Source of the DNA: Lachnospiraceae bacterium
GTDB lineage: Bacteria > Bacillota > Clostridia > Lachnospirales > Lachnospiraceae
Assembly: GCA_017397645.1 (NCBI GenBank)
Contig: JAFQIE010000021.1
Span: 55,240 to 119,239, forward strand
DNA length: 64,000 nucleotides
Reading direction: 5' to 3'
Shown: one piece after another, positions 57,565 to 63,571 of the stretch
Numbering within the stretch: the stretch's first letter is position 1
Layout of the letters: every line of letters starts with the position of its first letter
Notes under the pieces: generated by a model
What the model was told of the DNA's origin: nothing
What the model saw: only the letters and a program-made list of their open reading frames with translations
Databases searched by the model: none
Position numbers and translations under genes: made by a program

Positions 57565-57595
57565 CAAAAAAGGAGAGGCGAAAACCGTCTCTCCT
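57565..57595 (-). terminator. Terminator of the tpi-SIS-yjbQ-fsa operon
   Basis: AGGAGAGGCG (57571-57580) pairs with 57586-57595 over a five-base loop, then six T on the minus strand, 20 bases after the aldolase stop codon. Confidence 0.85.
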
Positions 57596-57617
57596 CTTCT
57601 TATGGGAAAAATCCCTT

Positions 57618-58292
57618 CTACATACCAAGAATTGTCTTGTCGCCGTAAGCGCCTGCCCAGTCCTTTTCAAAGCCTGCGATTGCCGCATCGGTCATAGGAT
57701 GGGAAATGATATTCTTCAGAATATCTGCGGAAACAGTCACGCTATGGCAGCCGTACAGTGCGCATTTATGAACCTGTTCTGCGTTTTTAAAGCTTGCAGC
57801 CAAAACCTTGCAATCCAACTTGTAATTTTCCAACTGCTCTACAATCTGAGCCACCACTTCTGTACCGTCACCGATGATATTATCCAATCGGTTTACATAG
57901 GGTGCCACGAAAGATGCACCTGCCTTTGCAGCGATCAAAGCCTGCGCCGGAGTAAAGATTGCTGTCATGGTCACGCCAATACCCAATTTCTTTAATTCCA
58001 TGGTTGCCTTCAAGCCCTCTTCCCCAATGGGAATCTTCACATAGAAATCACCGCCCAACTCCTTCTTCAGAAGTTTTGCTTCTTCCACCATTTTTTCTGC
58101 AGTGGTCTGCACGGTCTGTACATGAAGCATTTTGTCTTTACCGATAATCGCACGGATTTCCTTTACCAATTGCCAGAAATCACCGCCCTCTTTCGCAATG
58201 ATGGAAGGGTTGGTGGTAACGCCCGCCAGAGGGTAAAATTCGTTACAATGCTTGATAGCTGTCAAATCTGCTGTGTCTAAAATGTATAACAT
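57618..58292 (-). CDS. fsa: Fructose-6-phosphate aldolase/transaldolase-like enzyme (FSA/TalC family)
   Basis: This 224-residue TIM-barrel aldolase forms a Schiff base through Lys86 in FYVKIPIGEEGLKA. Other family hallmarks are the N-terminal YILDTADL, GVTTNPSIIAKEG, PYVNRLDNIIGDG and KVLAASFKNAEQ. The length equals E. coli FSA (220) and TalC enzymes, much shorter than classic transaldolase (about 320). It cleaves or forms a C-C bond at a dihydroxyacetone unit; the exact sugar phosphate is unknown. The frame continues upstream to 58394, but ATG 58292 has AGGAGCG and starts exactly at the family N-terminus. It is last in a four-gene operon, 19 bases after yjbQ. Confidence 0.93.
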   Translation of the reverse strand: MLYILDTADLTAIKHCNEFYPLAGVTTNPSIIAKEGGDFWQLVKEIRAIIGKDKMLHVQTVQTTAEKMVEEAKLLKKELGGDFYVKIPIGEEGLKATMELKKLGIGVTMTAIFTPAQALIAAKAGASFVAPYVNRLDNIIGDGTEVVAQIVEQLENYKLDCKVLAASFKNAEQVHKCALYGCHSVTVSADILKNIISHPMTDAAIAGFEKDWAGAYGDKTILGM

Positions 58293-58311
58293 AATCTCGC
58301 TCCTATCTGAA

Positions 58312-58932
58312 TTATCTCTGCAACTGAAGGGTGTAGTGAACATCATCTGCTTTCTCTTCGGGTGTGTACTTACGAAGCGTATTGATGACTTCACCGTTGT
58401 TGAACTTTCTATCCTCTACATCCTCGGTAGTACCCATAACGGTAACATTCACCTGACGTCTTCTTGCGCGCACCTGATCCCAGTCGATGAAATAAACATG
58501 TGCAAATTCACCACCGTCCAAAACGCCGTCCTTGATGGTCATAGCTTCGCTTCTGCCAAAGAACACACTTCTCAAGTGTCCGTCGGTATTCAAGCTGGTG
58601 AAGTCACCGGGTTCGTTTACGAAACGGCCGAACTGGGTGTGGATGGGACCGGGATGCATATACTCGTTCTCTTCAGAATAATCAGGCACCAATTTTCTCA
58701 TGATGTTGAGAATATCATGCTGCAAATATTCCATATCGTATTTATCCAAGTCATGAGAACATTCCTGCACCATGACAGAGCAGGTGGTGTGGTGGGAAGC
58801 GATGGTAACGGTACCATTCTTTACACCGGATGCCTTTACGATCTCGATAATCTCCTTTGAGATGTCGTGGAAAGTAGGTCTCCAACCTCTTGACTGCAAT
58901 TCAATTTCTTTTTGGTAAACTTTAAATTCCAT
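58312..58932 (-). CDS. YjbQ/UPF0047-family protein, divergent long form
   Basis: This 206-residue protein has the YjbQ fold signature ASHHTTCSVMVQE (near residue 45), a central HPGPIH segment and a C-terminal DGHLRSVFFGRSEAM...RRRQVNVTVMG block. YjbQ proteins are described as secondary thiamine-phosphate synthases, but their natural substrates are doubtful and they often lie in sugar-use operons. Two things are unusual: it is about 65 residues longer than the usual 140. Also, the usual GTWQ active-site signature is replaced by GGEFAH (140-145), so its chemistry may differ. It is third in the tpi-SIS-yjbQ-fsa operon. Confidence 0.85.
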   Translation of the reverse strand: MEFKVYQKEIELQSRGWRPTFHDISKEIIEIVKASGVKNGTVTIASHHTTCSVMVQECSHDLDKYDMEYLQHDILNIMRKLVPDYSEENEYMHPGPIHTQFGRFVNEPGDFTSLNTDGHLRSVFFGRSEAMTIKDGVLDGGEFAHVYFIDWDQVRARRRQVNVTVMGTTEDVEDRKFNNGEVINTLRKYTPEEKADDVHYTLQLQR

Positions 58933-58955
58933 TATTTCTCTCCTTTTGTCTTTAT

Positions 58956-59549
58956 CTATTTGTTTAATCTCTCCCCCACAGCTCCTCCGGGGTGAATGAG
59001 AGCAAACTGCTCATTTTGATAATTCATCTCTTCCATCAACGCTGTTTGCAGCAAATGGCAAATCACTGCCAACGAAGTGGAAGAAGTTGTTCCCTGGGCA
59101 TTGTATCTGTCTGTTTCGCGATTCACATATTGCTTTAGTACTACATCTGCCGCCTGTGCCAGAGGGGATTCCAGATTCTCGGTAATGGTAATCACCTTTA
59201 CGCCCTTTGCCTTGCATATATCCAAAATAGGAAGAAGCTCTTTGGTCTTACCTCCCCGGGAAGCAAACACACATACATCATCTTTCTTCAAAAAGCCCGT
59301 TCCACCGTGCACCGCCTCCGCCGGAGAAATAAACTTCGCAGGTAACTCGATGCAACACATCAAGTGTGCAAAATGCTGGCAAATAATCCCCGAATGTCCG
59401 CAACCGGTGGCACCGATACGAGGGGCATTCTTTAAGAGCTCTACAGCCTTATCAAAAGCTTCTTCTTCAAAGTAGTTTTCCATCTCACGGATACATTCCG
59501 ACTCGATGGTAAATACATCTCTTACTCTTTTTATGGTTTCTTCTTTCAT
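58956..59549 (-). CDS. SIS-domain sugar-phosphate isomerase, KpsF/GutQ-like without CBS
   Basis: This 197-residue protein has one SIS domain. Ser/Gly-rich phosphate loops are RIGATGCGHSGIICQHFAHL and VCVFASRGGKTKELL. A helix with STSLAVICHLLQTALMEE and a late HPGGAVGERL follow. This final motif is characteristic of arabinose-5-phosphate isomerases (KdsD, GutQ, KpsF), which convert ketose and aldose phosphates. The CBS pair of those enzymes is missing. It begins four bases after the upstream gene ends, so translation is coupled. It probably isomerises the sugar phosphate that the FSA-type aldolase cleaves, but the sugar is not known. Confidence 0.88.
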   Translation of the reverse strand: MKEETIKRVRDVFTIESECIREMENYFEEEAFDKAVELLKNAPRIGATGCGHSGIICQHFAHLMCCIELPAKFISPAEAVHGGTGFLKKDDVCVFASRGGKTKELLPILDICKAKGVKVITITENLESPLAQAADVVLKQYVNRETDRYNAQGTTSSTSLAVICHLLQTALMEEMNYQNEQFALIHPGGAVGERLNK

Positions 59550-59553
59550 ATGC

Positions 59554-60261
59554 TTACTCCGCCTTATGTAATTCATCCCATGCTTTTCTAACTGCCGCAA
59601 TCATTTCCTCTGCCAATGCCAAGGGATTCTCTGCCTTTGCGATGGCGCTGGAGCAACCGGAAGCGGAGGAACCTGCCTTGATGATATTGTAGCAATCCTC
59701 ACCCTTGCTGATGCCGGCAGAAGGGAAGGGCTTAATATCAGGATTAATCTCACGGATACACTTGATGACTGCGTCCACATACTCCTTGTCAGCGGGCTTG
59801 CCGGTACCGATCAGTTCTGTAGGTTCTGCCACCAAAATATTGGGACCAAGCTTGGCAATTTGCTGTACTTCCTCAATGCTGTCCGCACAAACCATGGTAG
59901 CCAGTCCCACTTCATCGGCACGTTTGATGGCTTCCTCTAATTCCTCCATGGTAAGCTTATGCTCTGCATGATTCAGCATGACACCCACAGCACCTGCTGC
60001 CTTCACAGCTTCCGGTAAAGTTCTGCCCATGCCCTTACCTACAGCCAATCTGCTCATATGCTGGGAATATACATGGATTCTTTTGGTATTATGTGCAATG
60101 TTGTAAATTTCGGTATCGGGCACATCCAAAATCACATCTACATCATATTTTTCAGAAAGTTCGTCCAAGCCCTTGGCAATATTCAAAAGCACGTCGCCGT
60201 ACATATAACATTTAGGACCATACTCAAAAAAAGGCTCTTTGATTTGATAATTCTTAACCAT
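59554..60261 (-). CDS. Triose-phosphate isomerase homologue of archaeal type
   Basis: This 235-residue TIM-barrel protein keeps the catalytic residues of triose-phosphate isomerase: Lys17 (GPKCYMYG), His98 (LNHAEH) and Glu146 (VAEPTELIGTG). The short length and the blocks VYSQHMSRLAVGKGMG, PEAVKAAGAVGVMLNHAE and AGISKGEDCYNIIKAGSSASG resemble archaeal TIM (about 225 residues) more than ordinary bacterial TIM (about 250). Glycolytic TIM is usually elsewhere, next to pgk. This one heads an operon with sugar isomerase and aldolase genes and is likely a catabolic isomerase for triose or tetrose phosphates, as in other TIM homologues of erythritol pathways. Confidence 0.88.
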   Translation of the reverse strand: MVKNYQIKEPFFEYGPKCYMYGDVLLNIAKGLDELSEKYDVDVILDVPDTEIYNIAHNTKRIHVYSQHMSRLAVGKGMGRTLPEAVKAAGAVGVMLNHAEHKLTMEELEEAIKRADEVGLATMVCADSIEEVQQIAKLGPNILVAEPTELIGTGKPADKEYVDAVIKCIREINPDIKPFPSAGISKGEDCYNIIKAGSSASGCSSAIAKAENPLALAEEMIAAVRKAWDELHKAE

Positions 60262-60326
60262 TTATCTGCATCCTTTCAAGTTTTCTTTCTTTCGTTTACT
60301 TTCGTTTTATGTTTTGATTTATTTCT

Positions 60327-60356
60327 ATTTTACATATGCAACGTTTATTTTGTCAA
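60327..60356 (-). promoter_or_regulatory. Predicted promoter P2 of the tpi-like operon
   Basis: On the minus strand a perfect TTGACA (60351-60356) and TAAAAT (60327-60332), 18 bases apart, lie about 65 bases before the first gene of the operon. Confidence 0.65.
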
Positions 60357-60662: not shown

Positions 60663-61946
60663 ATGGCAAAAAAACGTTATGCACATGTGGGTACCGGAGG
60701 CAGAGCGAAATTCTGGTATCACGGAATTGCAGAACAGTTTAATGAAACCTGTGAATTGGTAGCATTCTGTGATGTGAACCAGACCAGAATGAATTATGCC
60801 AATGACTATTTGGAAAGTGTGGGATTGGAAAAAGTACCTACCTACAAGCACTATGAATTTGAAAAAATGATTGAGGAGACCAAGCCTGATGTAGTCATCG
60901 TTACCAGCGTGGACAGAACTCATGACGATTATATTATCCGTGCCATGGAACTGGGCTGTGACGTTATCACAGAAAAACCTATGACCATCGACGAAAAACG
61001 TGCACAGGCAATCATTGACGCTCAGAAACGCACCGGCAGAGAGGTTCGTGTCACCTTCAACTATCGTTATGCACCTCACAACACCAAGATCCGCGAGTTG
61101 ATTATGGATGGTGTTATCGGCGATGTATACAGTGTTCATTTCGAATGGTTCCTGAACACCGAACACGGTGCAGATTACTTTAGAAGATGGCATCGTAACA
61201 AAGAAAACAGCGGCGGTTTATTGGTACATAAAGCAACCCACCATTTTGACCTTGTAAACTTCTGGTTGGGCACACAGCCCGATACCGTATTTGCCATGGG
61301 CGGACTGAATTTCTACGGCCGTACCGCAGCTGAGCGTAGAGGTGTGAAGGAATTCTACTACCGTTGCCACGGCAGTGAAATCGCAAAGAACCAGCCCTTC
61401 TATTTGGATATGGAAGCCAGTGAAACCCAGAAGGCTCTTTATTTAGATGCAGAACACGAAGATGGATACATCCGCGATAAGAGCGTATTCTCTGAGGAAA
61501 TCAACATTGAGGATACTATGGCAGTTATGGTTCGCTATAAAAACAATGTAGTCATGACCTACTCCTTGAATGCTTACATTCCCAAGGAAGGCTTCCGTGT
61601 GGTATTTAACGGCAGCAAGGGACGCATGGAAGTAGATGTGTTAGAAGACTCCTACACAAATGGCGGCGGAGACAGCGCAAAAGAAGGTGCAACAAAATAC
61701 AAAAAGATTACCATTACCCCTATGTTCTCGGGCCCTTATGAAGTACCGGTTCCTGAAGGAAAGGGCGGTCACGGTGGCGGAGACCCGCTTCTTTTGAATG
61801 ATATCTTTGGCGAACCCGTAGAAGATAAGTTCCACAGAGCAGCAAATCATGTCGATGGCGCAATGTCCATTCTGACCGGTGTAGCAGCGAACAAATCCAT
61901 TGCTTCCGGTATGCCAGTGAAGATTGACGATTTGGTAAAATTCTAG
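60663..61946 (+). CDS. Gfo/Idh/MocA-family oxidoreductase, divergent from tpi-like operon
   Basis: This 427-residue dehydrogenase has the cofactor loop VGTGGRAKFWYHGI, second-strand acid FCDVNQTR, the family EKP motif in ITEKPMTIDE and an HKATHHFDLVNFWLG segment with the probable catalytic His. C-terminal beta-sheet domain to about residue 420. It is about 70 residues longer than a typical member; the extra region (about 325-400) is glycine-rich (GGHGGGDPLL). It oxidises or reduces a sugar, cyclitol or derived lactone. It is divergent from the four-gene operon and convergent with the dehydroquinase-like gene, with a strong terminator after it. AAAGGAG is the ribosome site. Confidence 0.93.
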   Translation: MAKKRYAHVGTGGRAKFWYHGIAEQFNETCELVAFCDVNQTRMNYANDYLESVGLEKVPTYKHYEFEKMIEETKPDVVIVTSVDRTHDDYIIRAMELGCDVITEKPMTIDEKRAQAIIDAQKRTGREVRVTFNYRYAPHNTKIRELIMDGVIGDVYSVHFEWFLNTEHGADYFRRWHRNKENSGGLLVHKATHHFDLVNFWLGTQPDTVFAMGGLNFYGRTAAERRGVKEFYYRCHGSEIAKNQPFYLDMEASETQKALYLDAEHEDGYIRDKSVFSEEINIEDTMAVMVRYKNNVVMTYSLNAYIPKEGFRVVFNGSKGRMEVDVLEDSYTNGGGDSAKEGATKYKKITITPMFSGPYEVPVPEGKGGHGGGDPLLLNDIFGEPVEDKFHRAANHVDGAMSILTGVAANKSIASGMPVKIDDLVKF

Positions 61947-61973
61947 TTTAAGTTAAGGAGCAAATTGCGACTT

Positions 61974-62025
61974 TAAAAAACATCCGAAATCTCTCAACAC
62001 GAGAAATTTCGGATGTTCCTTTTTG
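61974..62025. terminator. Bidirectional terminator
   Basis: A 12-bp perfect stem (61979-61990 with 62005-62016) encloses a TCTC/GAGA inner stem. Runs of A on the left and T on the right allow it to serve both convergent genes. Confidence 0.85.
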
Positions 62026-62045
62026 CCTTTAAAATACATAGTTTA

Positions 62046-62804
62046 TTATAAATCTATGGTATCACGAATGGTTTTCATAGTAGACAGCAACGGCTGAGGC
62101 GGATGAGACAATGCATCATGTTCATAAACGCATAAGCCCATACAACACCCCAATGTGGGGCCCAGTCTTCTGTGAAGCTTGCTTTCACCACCGGATAAAA
62201 ACAGGAAGGGCGCGCCCAGTTCCTGCTTCAGCAGATTGGTAATCCTGAGATTTTCCATCTGCTGCTCCATGGTATCGGCACCGGTTACAATTTTAATGAT
62301 ATCTGCTCCCCTGCGCTTCTGCTCTTTGGCGATTTCCAGCACACGCTCTGCGGGTGCAAATTTGTATAGATGAGAAGACATCAGAACCTCTACTCCCATT
62401 CCATGAAGCTCGTCTATGTATTCCATCTGTTTTTTGATTGCCGCCGGATCATCCGTAAGTTCCTCCGGGTGTTTGCAAAACATATCTCCCATCACATCAC
62501 ACAGAGTCGCTCCGCTTTTTGCGATTTCTAACATCCCCTGTGCCAGTTCTTCGTCCGACTGTCCGGTGTTGTGCTTAAATCGATAGTTGGTTACATACGC
62601 CGGTCTGCCCTGCATCTCTCCAATAATTCTACGATATATATCAGGATTGTGATACTCCGGCTTTAGTGACTCCACCTGCAACCCATATGCATCAGCTCCC
62701 GTGCAATTGGCATTTCGTATCTTTCGAATAACATCTTCAGGAATCTCGTTCTCCAGCATTACGGTCAGCAACGGTCTTTCATGATTCAAAAAAGTCATAT
62801 CCAT
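62046..62804 (-). CDS. Type I 3-dehydroquinate dehydratase-like enzyme
   Basis: This 252-residue TIM-barrel protein resembles type I dehydroquinase (class I Schiff-base enzymes). The catalytic His is in VLMSSHLYKFAP, the Schiff-base Lys in ADIIKIVTGADTMEQ, and the late loop is FLFLSGGESKLHRRLGPTLG, similar to the substrate-binding S-R-G segment. Start ATG 62804 overlaps the upstream SDR stop as TGATG; two ATGs further up and down are possible. It is not in an aro operon, so a catabolic reaction on a quinate-, shikimate- or cyclitol-like compound is more likely than chorismate synthesis. Sequence divergence leaves the true substrate open. Confidence 0.8.
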   Translation of the reverse strand: MDMTFLNHERPLLTVMLENEIPEDVIRKIRNANCTGADAYGLQVESLKPEYHNPDIYRRIIGEMQGRPAYVTNYRFKHNTGQSDEELAQGMLEIAKSGATLCDVMGDMFCKHPEELTDDPAAIKKQMEYIDELHGMGVEVLMSSHLYKFAPAERVLEIAKEQKRRGADIIKIVTGADTMEQQMENLRITNLLKQELGAPFLFLSGGESKLHRRLGPTLGCCMGLCVYEHDALSHPPQPLLSTMKTIRDTIDL

Positions 62805-63571
62805 CAGCTCCATTTCCTTGACATGGCATTTCTGCCACCATCAATCATAATATTTTCACCGTTGATGAACTGTCCTTTCTCTGACGCAAGGAACAACACC
62901 AAATCAATAATTTCCTGAGGCTCGGCAGCTCTGCCCAAAAGTGTGGGCATCTCAGCCATATTAGCTCTGGTAAGGACAGGTCCGGGAGATACACAGACAC
63001 AACGGATACCATATTTTGAACCAAACTGTGCAATACTCTTTGTCAATCCATGCATCAGACCGGCTTTTGCGGTAGGGTAATCCATACCATAACCATCGCC
63101 CTCTGCTCCGGTAATGGAACCGATATTGATGATAAGCCCGCTATTCTGCTCCCGCATCTGTTTTAAGACAGCATGCGCAAAATAAAAAGGTCCCTTCAAA
63201 TTTACATCCAATCCCCAATCAAAAACATCAATGGGCACATCAGGGAACTCGGGGTGCTGTTTTCTATCCACGCCCCGCATTCTATACGCGGTACCACCTG
63301 CAAAGTTCGCCATCACATCGATGCGTCCCCACTCAGACACCGCTCTGTCGCGGGCTGCACACACCTGCGCATAGTCGCGCACATCACAGATAACACCTAC
63401 AGCTCTGCCACCATCCTTGGCGTTAATCTCTCCTACTTTTTCTTTCAGGACCACTTCATTGACATCACACAATAATACATTTCCGCCGAGCGCTGCAAAA
63501 TTCTGAGCAAAAAGCAAGCCCATGCCGGATGCCGCGCCTGTGGAAATTGCAACTTTACCTGTAAAATCCAT
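62804..63571 (-). CDS. SDR-family dehydrogenase coupled to the dehydroquinase-like gene
   Basis: This 255-residue NAD(P)-dependent enzyme has the motif STGAASGMGLLFAQNF, acidic LLCDVNE at the end of strand 2 (suggesting NAD), NFAGG, catalytic Ser in NIGSITGAEG, YPTAKA in place of the usual YxxxK at the right spacing (Tyr-Pro-Thr-Ala-Lys), and GENIMIDGGRN. It overlaps the next gene by one base (TGATG), so expression is coupled. It probably oxidises a hydroxyl of the compound the next enzyme acts on, as quinate/shikimate dehydrogenases do before dehydroquinase. Confidence 0.93.
   Translation of the reverse strand: MDFTGKVAISTGAASGMGLLFAQNFAALGGNVLLCDVNEVVLKEKVGEINAKDGGRAVGVICDVRDYAQVCAARDRAVSEWGRIDVMANFAGGTAYRMRGVDRKQHPEFPDVPIDVFDWGLDVNLKGPFYFAHAVLKQMREQNSGLIINIGSITGAEGDGYGMDYPTAKAGLMHGLTKSIAQFGSKYGIRCVCVSPGPVLTRANMAEMPTLLGRAAEPQEIIDLVLFLASEKGQFINGENIMIDGGRNAMSRKWS

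Follow-up and report, generated by a model that had tools for sequence, protein, structure and literature searches.

The four-gene operon examined here spans positions 57618 to 60261, on the minus strand, of a 64,000-nucleotide stretch of a Lachnospiraceae bacterium genome (assembly GCA_017397645.1, contig JAFQIE010000021.1, positions 55,240 to 119,239; hereafter the window). From 5′ to 3′ it encodes a paralogue of triose-phosphate isomerase (TIM), a KpsF-like SIS isomerase, a YjbQ protein and an aldolase of the fructose-6-phosphate aldolase (FSA) type. The best overall explanation of this operon, to which we give a probability of about 0.4, is that it supplies the later steps of a pathway that breaks down a ketose phosphate. 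In other genomes the TIM paralogue usually stands beside YjbQ, which suggests that both proteins act in the breakdown of an unusual sugar phosphate. An earlier note, made from the sequence of this stretch, had proposed a self-contained operon with a complete isomerise-cleave-isomerise route, and its interpretation as a whole is partly supported. The gene identities and order that it gave, and its intergenic distances of 4, 23 and 19 bases, are borne out when the ATG starts of the SIS and FSA genes are used, its family assignments (an archaeal-type TIM, a KpsF-like SIS protein, YjbQ, FSA) agree with the profile scores given below, and the catalytic residues it named (Lys17, His98 and Glu146 of TIM, Lys86 of FSA) are all present.

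No partner of the TIM paralogue is as frequent as YjbQ, which had first been handled as an accessory protein. Of 107 distinct loci, the window excluded, 94 have a YjbQ gene no more than 5.5 kb from the TIM paralogue: 42 of 50 in a contig scan, 47 of 52 in the sampled genomes, and 5 of 5 on plasmids. The contig scan favours close relatives of the window TIM, so 94/107 is not an unbiased frequency. Control loci carrying a canonical TIM had flanks of only about 1.5 kb, and the comparison was therefore made at that distance, where YjbQ was present at 91 of 107 TIM-paralogue loci and 0 of 43 canonical-TIM loci. Where there is a single pair, YjbQ is the downstream gene at 81 of 82 loci, and the median distance between the two genes is 45 bases. 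The distance matrices of the two proteins are also correlated across 83 pairs (the window plus 82 loci where a TIM of more than 200 residues has one and only one YjbQ on its own strand within 1.5 kb), with r = 0.78 against a maximum of 0.18 in 500 permutations; shared descent of a co-transferred pair would give this correlation too. The pair is also carried by plasmids of Shinella, Enterococcus and Lacticaseibacillus.

These counts draw on 111 loci, of which 51 came from the contig scan, 17 + 38 from the sampled genomes and 5 from plasmid records. TIM genes whose products were identical over the last 150 residues were counted once, and matches of at most 100 bits or at most 140 residues were left out. 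What remained were 107 TIM genes, two of them at L174, spread over 106 loci, with none retained from L053, L197, L199, L202 or L205. Partners were scored with phmmer using seeds from the loci and simple longest-open-reading-frame (ORF) gene calls; counts vary slightly with the distance measure (FSA 18 versus 21). Pfam or NCBIfam confirmed the seeds for the window YjbQ, TIM, SIS and FSA, for FGGY, NagA, HxlB, Rpe, class II aldolase, Dak, EIIA, EIIB, EIIC and the sorbitol phosphotransferase system (PTS), and for Lyx_isomer, BtpA, PF01261, Fe-ADH and zinc dehydrogenase. The RpiB, GmhA and FucA/RhaD-like seeds were named by eye, and the names NagB-like, FucI-like and ceramidase-like rest on weak or sub-cut-off matches.

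The remaining partners within 5.5 kb of the TIM paralogue are modular. A KpsF-like SIS gene was found at 65 of the 107 loci, an FGGY kinase at 49, a class II aldolase at 19, FSA at 18, EIIC-GAT at 8, Rpe at 8 and HxlB at 3, along with the amino-sugar-like NagB-like (19), NagA-like (16) and ceramidase-like (14) genes. Recurring kinase, isomerase, PTS and aldolase partners give good support to the view, already held in the earlier note, of a catabolic operon for an unusual sugar phosphate. That note had asked for a kinase or a PTS or ATP-binding cassette (ABC) partner in related genomes; the FGGY kinase answers to this, and PTS and ABC genes do so in some clusters. It had also looked to related genomes for the four genes together: TIM, SIS and YjbQ do occur together at 59 of 107 loci, whereas all four window genes are found at only 15. 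No locus of the 107 combined the FGGY kinase with scored GAT or sorbitol PTS genes, and none combined SIS with a class II aldolase. These mutually exclusive partners are interchangeable ways in and out of the pathway. The split between them follows the TIM tree (52 of 110 sequences after thinning) with one change.

Several clusters illustrate this modularity. EIIA, EIIB, EIIC-GAT, class II aldolase, TIM and YjbQ genes stand together in L116, L118, L120-L122 and L124, with regulators carrying PRD and EIIA domains confirmed in L116, L120 and L124, and sorbitol-type PTS genes occur in L125, L126 and L188 (Pfam-confirmed for L126). L119 has ABC transporter genes, an FGGY kinase and a zinc dehydrogenase with TIM, YjbQ and SIS. 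On two Shinella plasmids a short-chain dehydrogenase/reductase (SDR), a PF01261 protein, TIM, YjbQ and an FGGY kinase are accompanied by nearby ABC transporters and DhaL. Three related clusters lacking the KpsF-like SIS (L127-L129) comprise TIM-YjbQ-HxlB-Rpe, and HxlB, a 6-phospho-3-hexuloisomerase, is a true member of its family (204.9, 194.5 and 202.4 bits, cut-off 160), as in the ribulose monophosphate pathway. These clusters differ from that pathway in that HxlA matches in their genomes (98, 97 and 79% complete) reached only 19 to 27 bits against a cut-off of 200, the neighbouring Rpe among them; the window SIS differs in being KpsF-like and not an HxlB. An IIBC PTS gene and an HPr-EI gene are found near the clusters of L127 and L129.

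In the NagB-like protein of L005 (8948-9898) and its relatives, which belong to the same gene runs as NagA-like genes and the TIM operon, the motif DGH reads TGH by eye. We take DGH, with a catalytic Asp, to be the expected NagB motif, and the TGH proteins are probably not ordinary glucosamine-6-phosphate deaminases, judging by this residue.

The TIM gene occupies 59554 to 60261. Its product scores 171.8 bits against NF003302 (PRK04302, the archaeal-type subfamily; cut-off 132) and 78.7 bits against the TIGR00419 equivalog, below the cut-off of 130.6. The best structural alignments are to the archaeal TIMs 1hg3, its best solved relative, and 2h6r. A canonical TIM (315.7 bits) is encoded on contig C44 of the same assembly (1.81 Mb, 74% complete), so the window protein is a paralogue and not the glycolytic enzyme; the possibility that it served as the organism's sole glycolytic TIM was rejected on this ground. 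The catalytic residues Lys17, His98 and Glu146 are invariant in 51 of 51 aligned clade members. The window TIM shares its sequence family, the catalytic Lys, His and Glu and the LIGTG loop with 1hg3 and 2h6r, and departs from 1hg3 at NHSE (NHAE in the window), NFK (GPK) and the LLASG loop (GCSSA). NHSE is also present in Natrinema TIM. From 1hg3, 2h6r and Natrinema we took the Asn of NxK and the Ser after the catalytic His as typical, and the window TIM has Gly15 and Ala99 in their place. Within the clade, Asn occupies residue 15 in 19 of 51 members and Ser follows His98 in only 2 of 51. Unlike the gene for the archaeal-type TIM, the clade's genes mostly stand beside YjbQ and sugar genes. We propose that the TIM paralogue is a ketose-phosphate carbonyl-shifting isomerase. 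Clade members that bear the annotation triose-phosphate isomerase, the plasmid genes among them, may code for a different enzyme. A search with the window TIM matched 48 of 391 sampled genomes of its class at E 1e-15; a protein above the NF003302 cut-off was present in 6 of 150 genomes in the family and in 12 of 398 in the phylum, the organism's own genome being included in each count. Three consecutive genes on a plasmid of the haloarchaeon Halobellus limi (L208, 2986-5904) encode a divergent TIM paralogue, an AMP phosphorylase and a short YjbQ of the ordinary kind.

The window YjbQ (UPF0047; 58312 to 58932) is a long form of 206 residues, compared with 132 for the TIGR00149 model, and it just exceeds the cut-off of that model (68.7 against 67.75 bits); PF01894 gives 86.1 bits (cut-off 27). 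It has the His-x-Thr and Asn-x-Asp-x-His motifs in common with TM0723 and carries the extra HD, LQxD and PGxxH motifs of the TIM-linked form, and invariant residues were found in the aligned TIM-linked YjbQ proteins. All seven YjbQ structures matched in the PDB are named without a stated function. The available portion of PMC7954711 likewise describes E. coli YjbQ as a protein of unknown function, and lists it as one of seven genes that relieve a pdxB defect on overexpression. Among the open-licence PMC matches listed, no title or start of an abstract pointed to a paper on YjbQ paired with a TIM paralogue. We propose that the window YjbQ is the next ketose-phosphate isomerase after the TIM paralogue. 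Its frequent partnership in defined catabolic operons makes the function of YjbQ testable. Eleven loci have two YjbQ genes near one TIM paralogue (L171, L172, L175, L177, L179, L180, L182, L184, L185, L189 and L191); where both were measured, most have one long and one short form, and in L185 both are short.

The second gene of the operon encodes a single-domain SIS isomerase (PF01380, no CBS domains) and runs from 58956 to an ATG at 59549, the mechanical ORF beginning upstream at a TTG. It scores below the cut-offs for kpsF (115.6 bits against 203.7), KdsD (109.3 against 505) and HxlB (53.7 against 160), and its nearest solved structure, 3fxa, is an SIS protein without a stated function. The SIS domain, the EAVHG motif, Glu145 and HPGG are shared with KpsF, GutQ and KdsD; the window protein differs from them in its lack of CBS domains, in its GHSG and GGKT motifs (GKSG and SGET in the phosphosugar isomerase 5uqi) and in scores far under their cut-offs. 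Arg98-Gly-Gly-x-Thr, Glu145, Asp147 and His186 are kept in 20 of 20 members of the aligned SIS clade. Arabinose-5-phosphate isomerase was rejected as an assignment on the scores and on the residues compared with 5uqi. We propose instead an aldose-ketose or 3-ulose/2-ulose phosphate isomerase that is distinct from the canonical arabinose-5-phosphate isomerase.

The last gene (57618 to 58292, ATG start, the mechanical ORF beginning upstream at a GTG) encodes the FSA-type aldolase. Of three FSA models, PRK12656 is matched above its cut-off (222.9 bits against 214), while TIGR00875 fsa_talC_mipB (229.5 against 245.95) and PRK12653 (227.4 against 306) are not. The pocket residues are Asp6, Asn28, Gln59, Lys86, Thr110, Ala130, Tyr132 and Arg135, Tyr132 corresponding to Tyr131 of E. 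coli FSA. The accessible text of PMC13259622 names Asp6, Asn28, Gln59, Lys85, Thr109, Ala129 and Tyr131 in the E. coli enzyme, and states that the activities of FSA and TalB are interconverted when the residues organising the catalytic water are exchanged between the two enzymes. Lys86 is present in 25 of 25 FSA-like proteins (fetched loci, window included, not de-duplicated) and the Gln59/Tyr132 signature in 24 of 25; the exception, L190, has Glu and Phe at these positions and belongs to the class II aldolase group. Gln59, Lys86 and Tyr132 are the residues of an aldolase and not of a transaldolase, and the latter assignment was rejected on the Gln/Tyr signature. The window FSA is the only TAL_FSA Pfam match found in the assembly, which is incomplete, so the enzyme could have a second, housekeeping use.

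The operon is neither self-contained nor a complete route, as it had been called, since a fitting kinase and aldose isomerase lie at a second locus of the same assembly. No kinase is visible in the stretch first described, as the earlier note said, but contig C21 encodes an FGGY kinase 62% identical to the cluster kinase of L005. This kinase adjoins a FucI-like isomerase, and a ceramidase-like gene lies within 5 kb. The three C21 genes (kinase, FucI-like isomerase, ceramidase-like) show 78, 86 and 77% identity to genes of L007, and that locus brings the kinase and isomerase together with TIM, SIS, YjbQ and FSA. Given this resemblance, the pathway looks split over two places in this organism. 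Near the C21 kinase and FucI-like isomerase (L169, 5279-11235) are also a 671-residue protein without a Pfam match, an AraC regulator, a MatE transporter and the ceramidase-like protein. A PDB search with the FucI-like, 671-residue and ceramidase-like proteins of C21 returned 0 matches for each.

We infer every reaction of the route, the order of the steps, the position at which the kinase places the phosphate and the substrate. An aldose would be isomerised by the FucI-like enzyme and phosphorylated by the FGGY kinase, both from the second locus. The TIM paralogue would then shift the carbonyl of the ketose 1-phosphate from C2 to C3 (R-CHOH-CO-CH2OP to R-CO-CHOH-CH2OP), YjbQ would isomerise its product, and the SIS protein would make the last shift, giving a 2-ketose with the phosphate at the far end. 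FSA would cleave this product to dihydroxyacetone and glyceraldehyde 3-phosphate. The isomerise-cleave-isomerise order proposed earlier is probably wrong: among the 94 loci with TIM and YjbQ, 77 have no FSA and 60 have neither FSA nor a class II aldolase within 5.5 kb. The TIM paralogue is thus unlikely to exist for processing the triose made by FSA, and a TIM step before cleavage is favoured. We found no description of such a route for unusual sugars, and the named relatives come largely from animal-gut metagenomes.

The successive carbonyl shifts by the TIM paralogue and YjbQ would be analogous to EryH/LerI-type chemistry on erythrulose phosphate. Tetritol catabolism (EryABCHI; EltD-LerK-LerI-DerI) resembles the route proposed here in having a kinase, a carbonyl shift by a TIM-family or other isomerase, and a second isomerase, with fbaA nearby in Brucella. 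The window differs in its archaeal-type TIM, in YjbQ in the place of RpiB, and in the addition of SIS and FSA. The gene tpiA2 is presumably eryH. In the part of PMC3522698 available, tpiA2 and rpiB lie immediately downstream of eryABCD and are followed by fbaA, and a passage of PMC5468441 calls eryH an isomerase gene of tetrulose phosphate. The accessible section of PMC10733421 describes an E. coli system in which LerI and DerI jointly make erythrose 4-phosphate from L-erythrulose 1-phosphate.

A more specific form of the proposed route, which we hold to be unlikely as it stands, is a carbonyl walk in which TIM would move the carbonyl from C2 to C3, YjbQ from C3 to C4 and SIS or HxlB from C4 to C5. 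The chain of a ketohexose 1-phosphate would thereby be reversed end to end, giving a ketohexose 6-phosphate as a substrate for FSA. We infer this from HxlB in genomes where no HxlA exceeds its cut-off: the 3-hexulose 6-phosphate must then come from elsewhere, and the successive action of TIM and YjbQ on a ketohexose 1-phosphate would provide it. If the walk is real, each shift would rewrite one stereocentre, so that sugars of the wrong stereochemistry could be led to an intermediate like D-fructose 6-phosphate. YjbQ would gain a function, and HxlB without HxlA would be explained.

Several observations weigh against the ketose-phosphate route as a whole. No scored YjbQ was found near 13 of the 107 TIM genes; the contig ends just downstream in L030, L042 and L050, and L019 holds a fragment, while in nine loci (L026, L041, L043, L047, L114, L117, L192, L195 and L201) YjbQ went unscored despite room for it. 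Nothing in the sequence of YjbQ proves an isomerase, and the protein has no known reaction. The kinase is tied to the operon by the assembly bin only, and a cluster FGGY kinase scores best against xylulokinase (308 bits, below the cut-off of 380), which would favour a phosphate at the far end of the sugar and not at C1. TIM residue 15 matches the partner genes perfectly (Asn versus Gly/Ser; 19/19 and 68/68), yet this link needs a single change on the tree and so counts as one event, not as independent support. The route does not account for the NagA-like and NagB-like neighbours. Finally, no Dak1 dihydroxyacetone kinase was found in the assembly (74% complete).

The main rival, which we consider doubtful, places the operon in a tetrulose-phosphate route. 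The TIM paralogue would convert L-erythrulose 1-phosphate to D-erythrulose 4-phosphate, YjbQ would replace RpiB (EryI/DerI) in forming erythrose 4-phosphate, SIS would be an alternative last isomerase, and the aldolase would use or make a C4 phosphate. This reading is kept because the Shinella plasmids and L114 fit it better. The Shinella plasmid set of SDR, PF01261, TIM, YjbQ, FGGY, ABC and DhaL genes parallels eryABC with tpiA2-rpiB and fbaA, as laid out in the available part of PMC3522698, and L114 combines TIM with a Dak1/Dak2 kinase and an RpiB (named by eye) in the absence of YjbQ. HxlB and FSA, however, have no obvious role on a C4 phosphate, and the FucI-like isomerase and the galactitol- or sorbitol-type PTS genes hint, by family resemblance, at longer chains. 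The exchange of YjbQ for RpiB rests on few loci, as RpiB was found at 2 of 107, L114 and L198, the latter with YjbQ.

Another rival takes the enzyme for an ordinary second TIM that handles the triose made by the aldolase, as the earlier note had proposed, and takes YjbQ for a bystander. Its subfamily bears the name triose-phosphate isomerase and the Lys, His and Glu of TIM are all retained; set against the canonical TIM already in the assembly, the 60 of 94 TIM and YjbQ loci with neither aldolase, and a residue other than Ser next to the catalytic His in 49 of 51 clade members (Ser in 1hg3, 2h6r and Natrinema), these points leave the view improbable. Still less probable is a route for an N-acylated amino sugar, in which NagA-like, NagB-like and ceramidase-like enzymes would act upstream and the operon would take the deaminated ketose phosphate. 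These three genes often share one gene run, yet most of the 107 loci have none of them within 5.5 kb, and neither the NagA nor the NagB family was seen among the window genes scanned. The NagB-like protein scores 41.6 bits against a cut-off of 236.9, and by eye has Thr at the position expected for the catalytic Asp of NagB.

The operon was probably gained by transfer. At E 1e-15 its YjbQ was found in 0 of 24 sampled congeners (1 of 41 genomes overall, the organism's own). In six congeners, neither the operon nor the three genes to its right had a match in the 12.5-14 kb around a conserved YajC-like gene; AsnS was present in five of these stretches and a lipoprotein gene in four. The tree places the window TIM among sequences from Oscillospiraceae and other Clostridia. 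A misplaced contig in a metagenome bin is a possible alternative, but the window contig also carries the AsnS and YajC-like genes of the genus. To the right of the operon (60663-63571) are genes for a Gfo/Idh/MocA oxidoreductase, a type I dehydroquinase-like protein (PF01487, 57 bits, far under the aroD cut-off) and an SDR. These three genes may be a second catabolic set that was acquired.

The operon had also been credited with its own promoter and terminator. Both patterns do occur at the expected sites: a promoter-like TTGACA-18-TAAAAT lies 5′ of the TIM gene (60327-60356, minus strand; 11 of 12 positions, a consensus match only), and a terminator-like hairpin followed by a T-run lies 3′ of FSA (57571-57595, minus strand; the pattern scan lists it on the plus strand). 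Folded as minus-strand RNA, the hairpin falls well below its shuffles (z = -4.06). Across the region, however, such patterns are near chance, with 9 promoter-like matches against a shuffle mean of 6.0 and 5 terminator-like matches against 3.5. Ahead of the operon, a promoter-like site at 60483-60454 and then a hairpin of 14 pairs (60431-60397, T-rich tail) come before the second promoter-like site at 60356, an arrangement that may be an attenuated leader.

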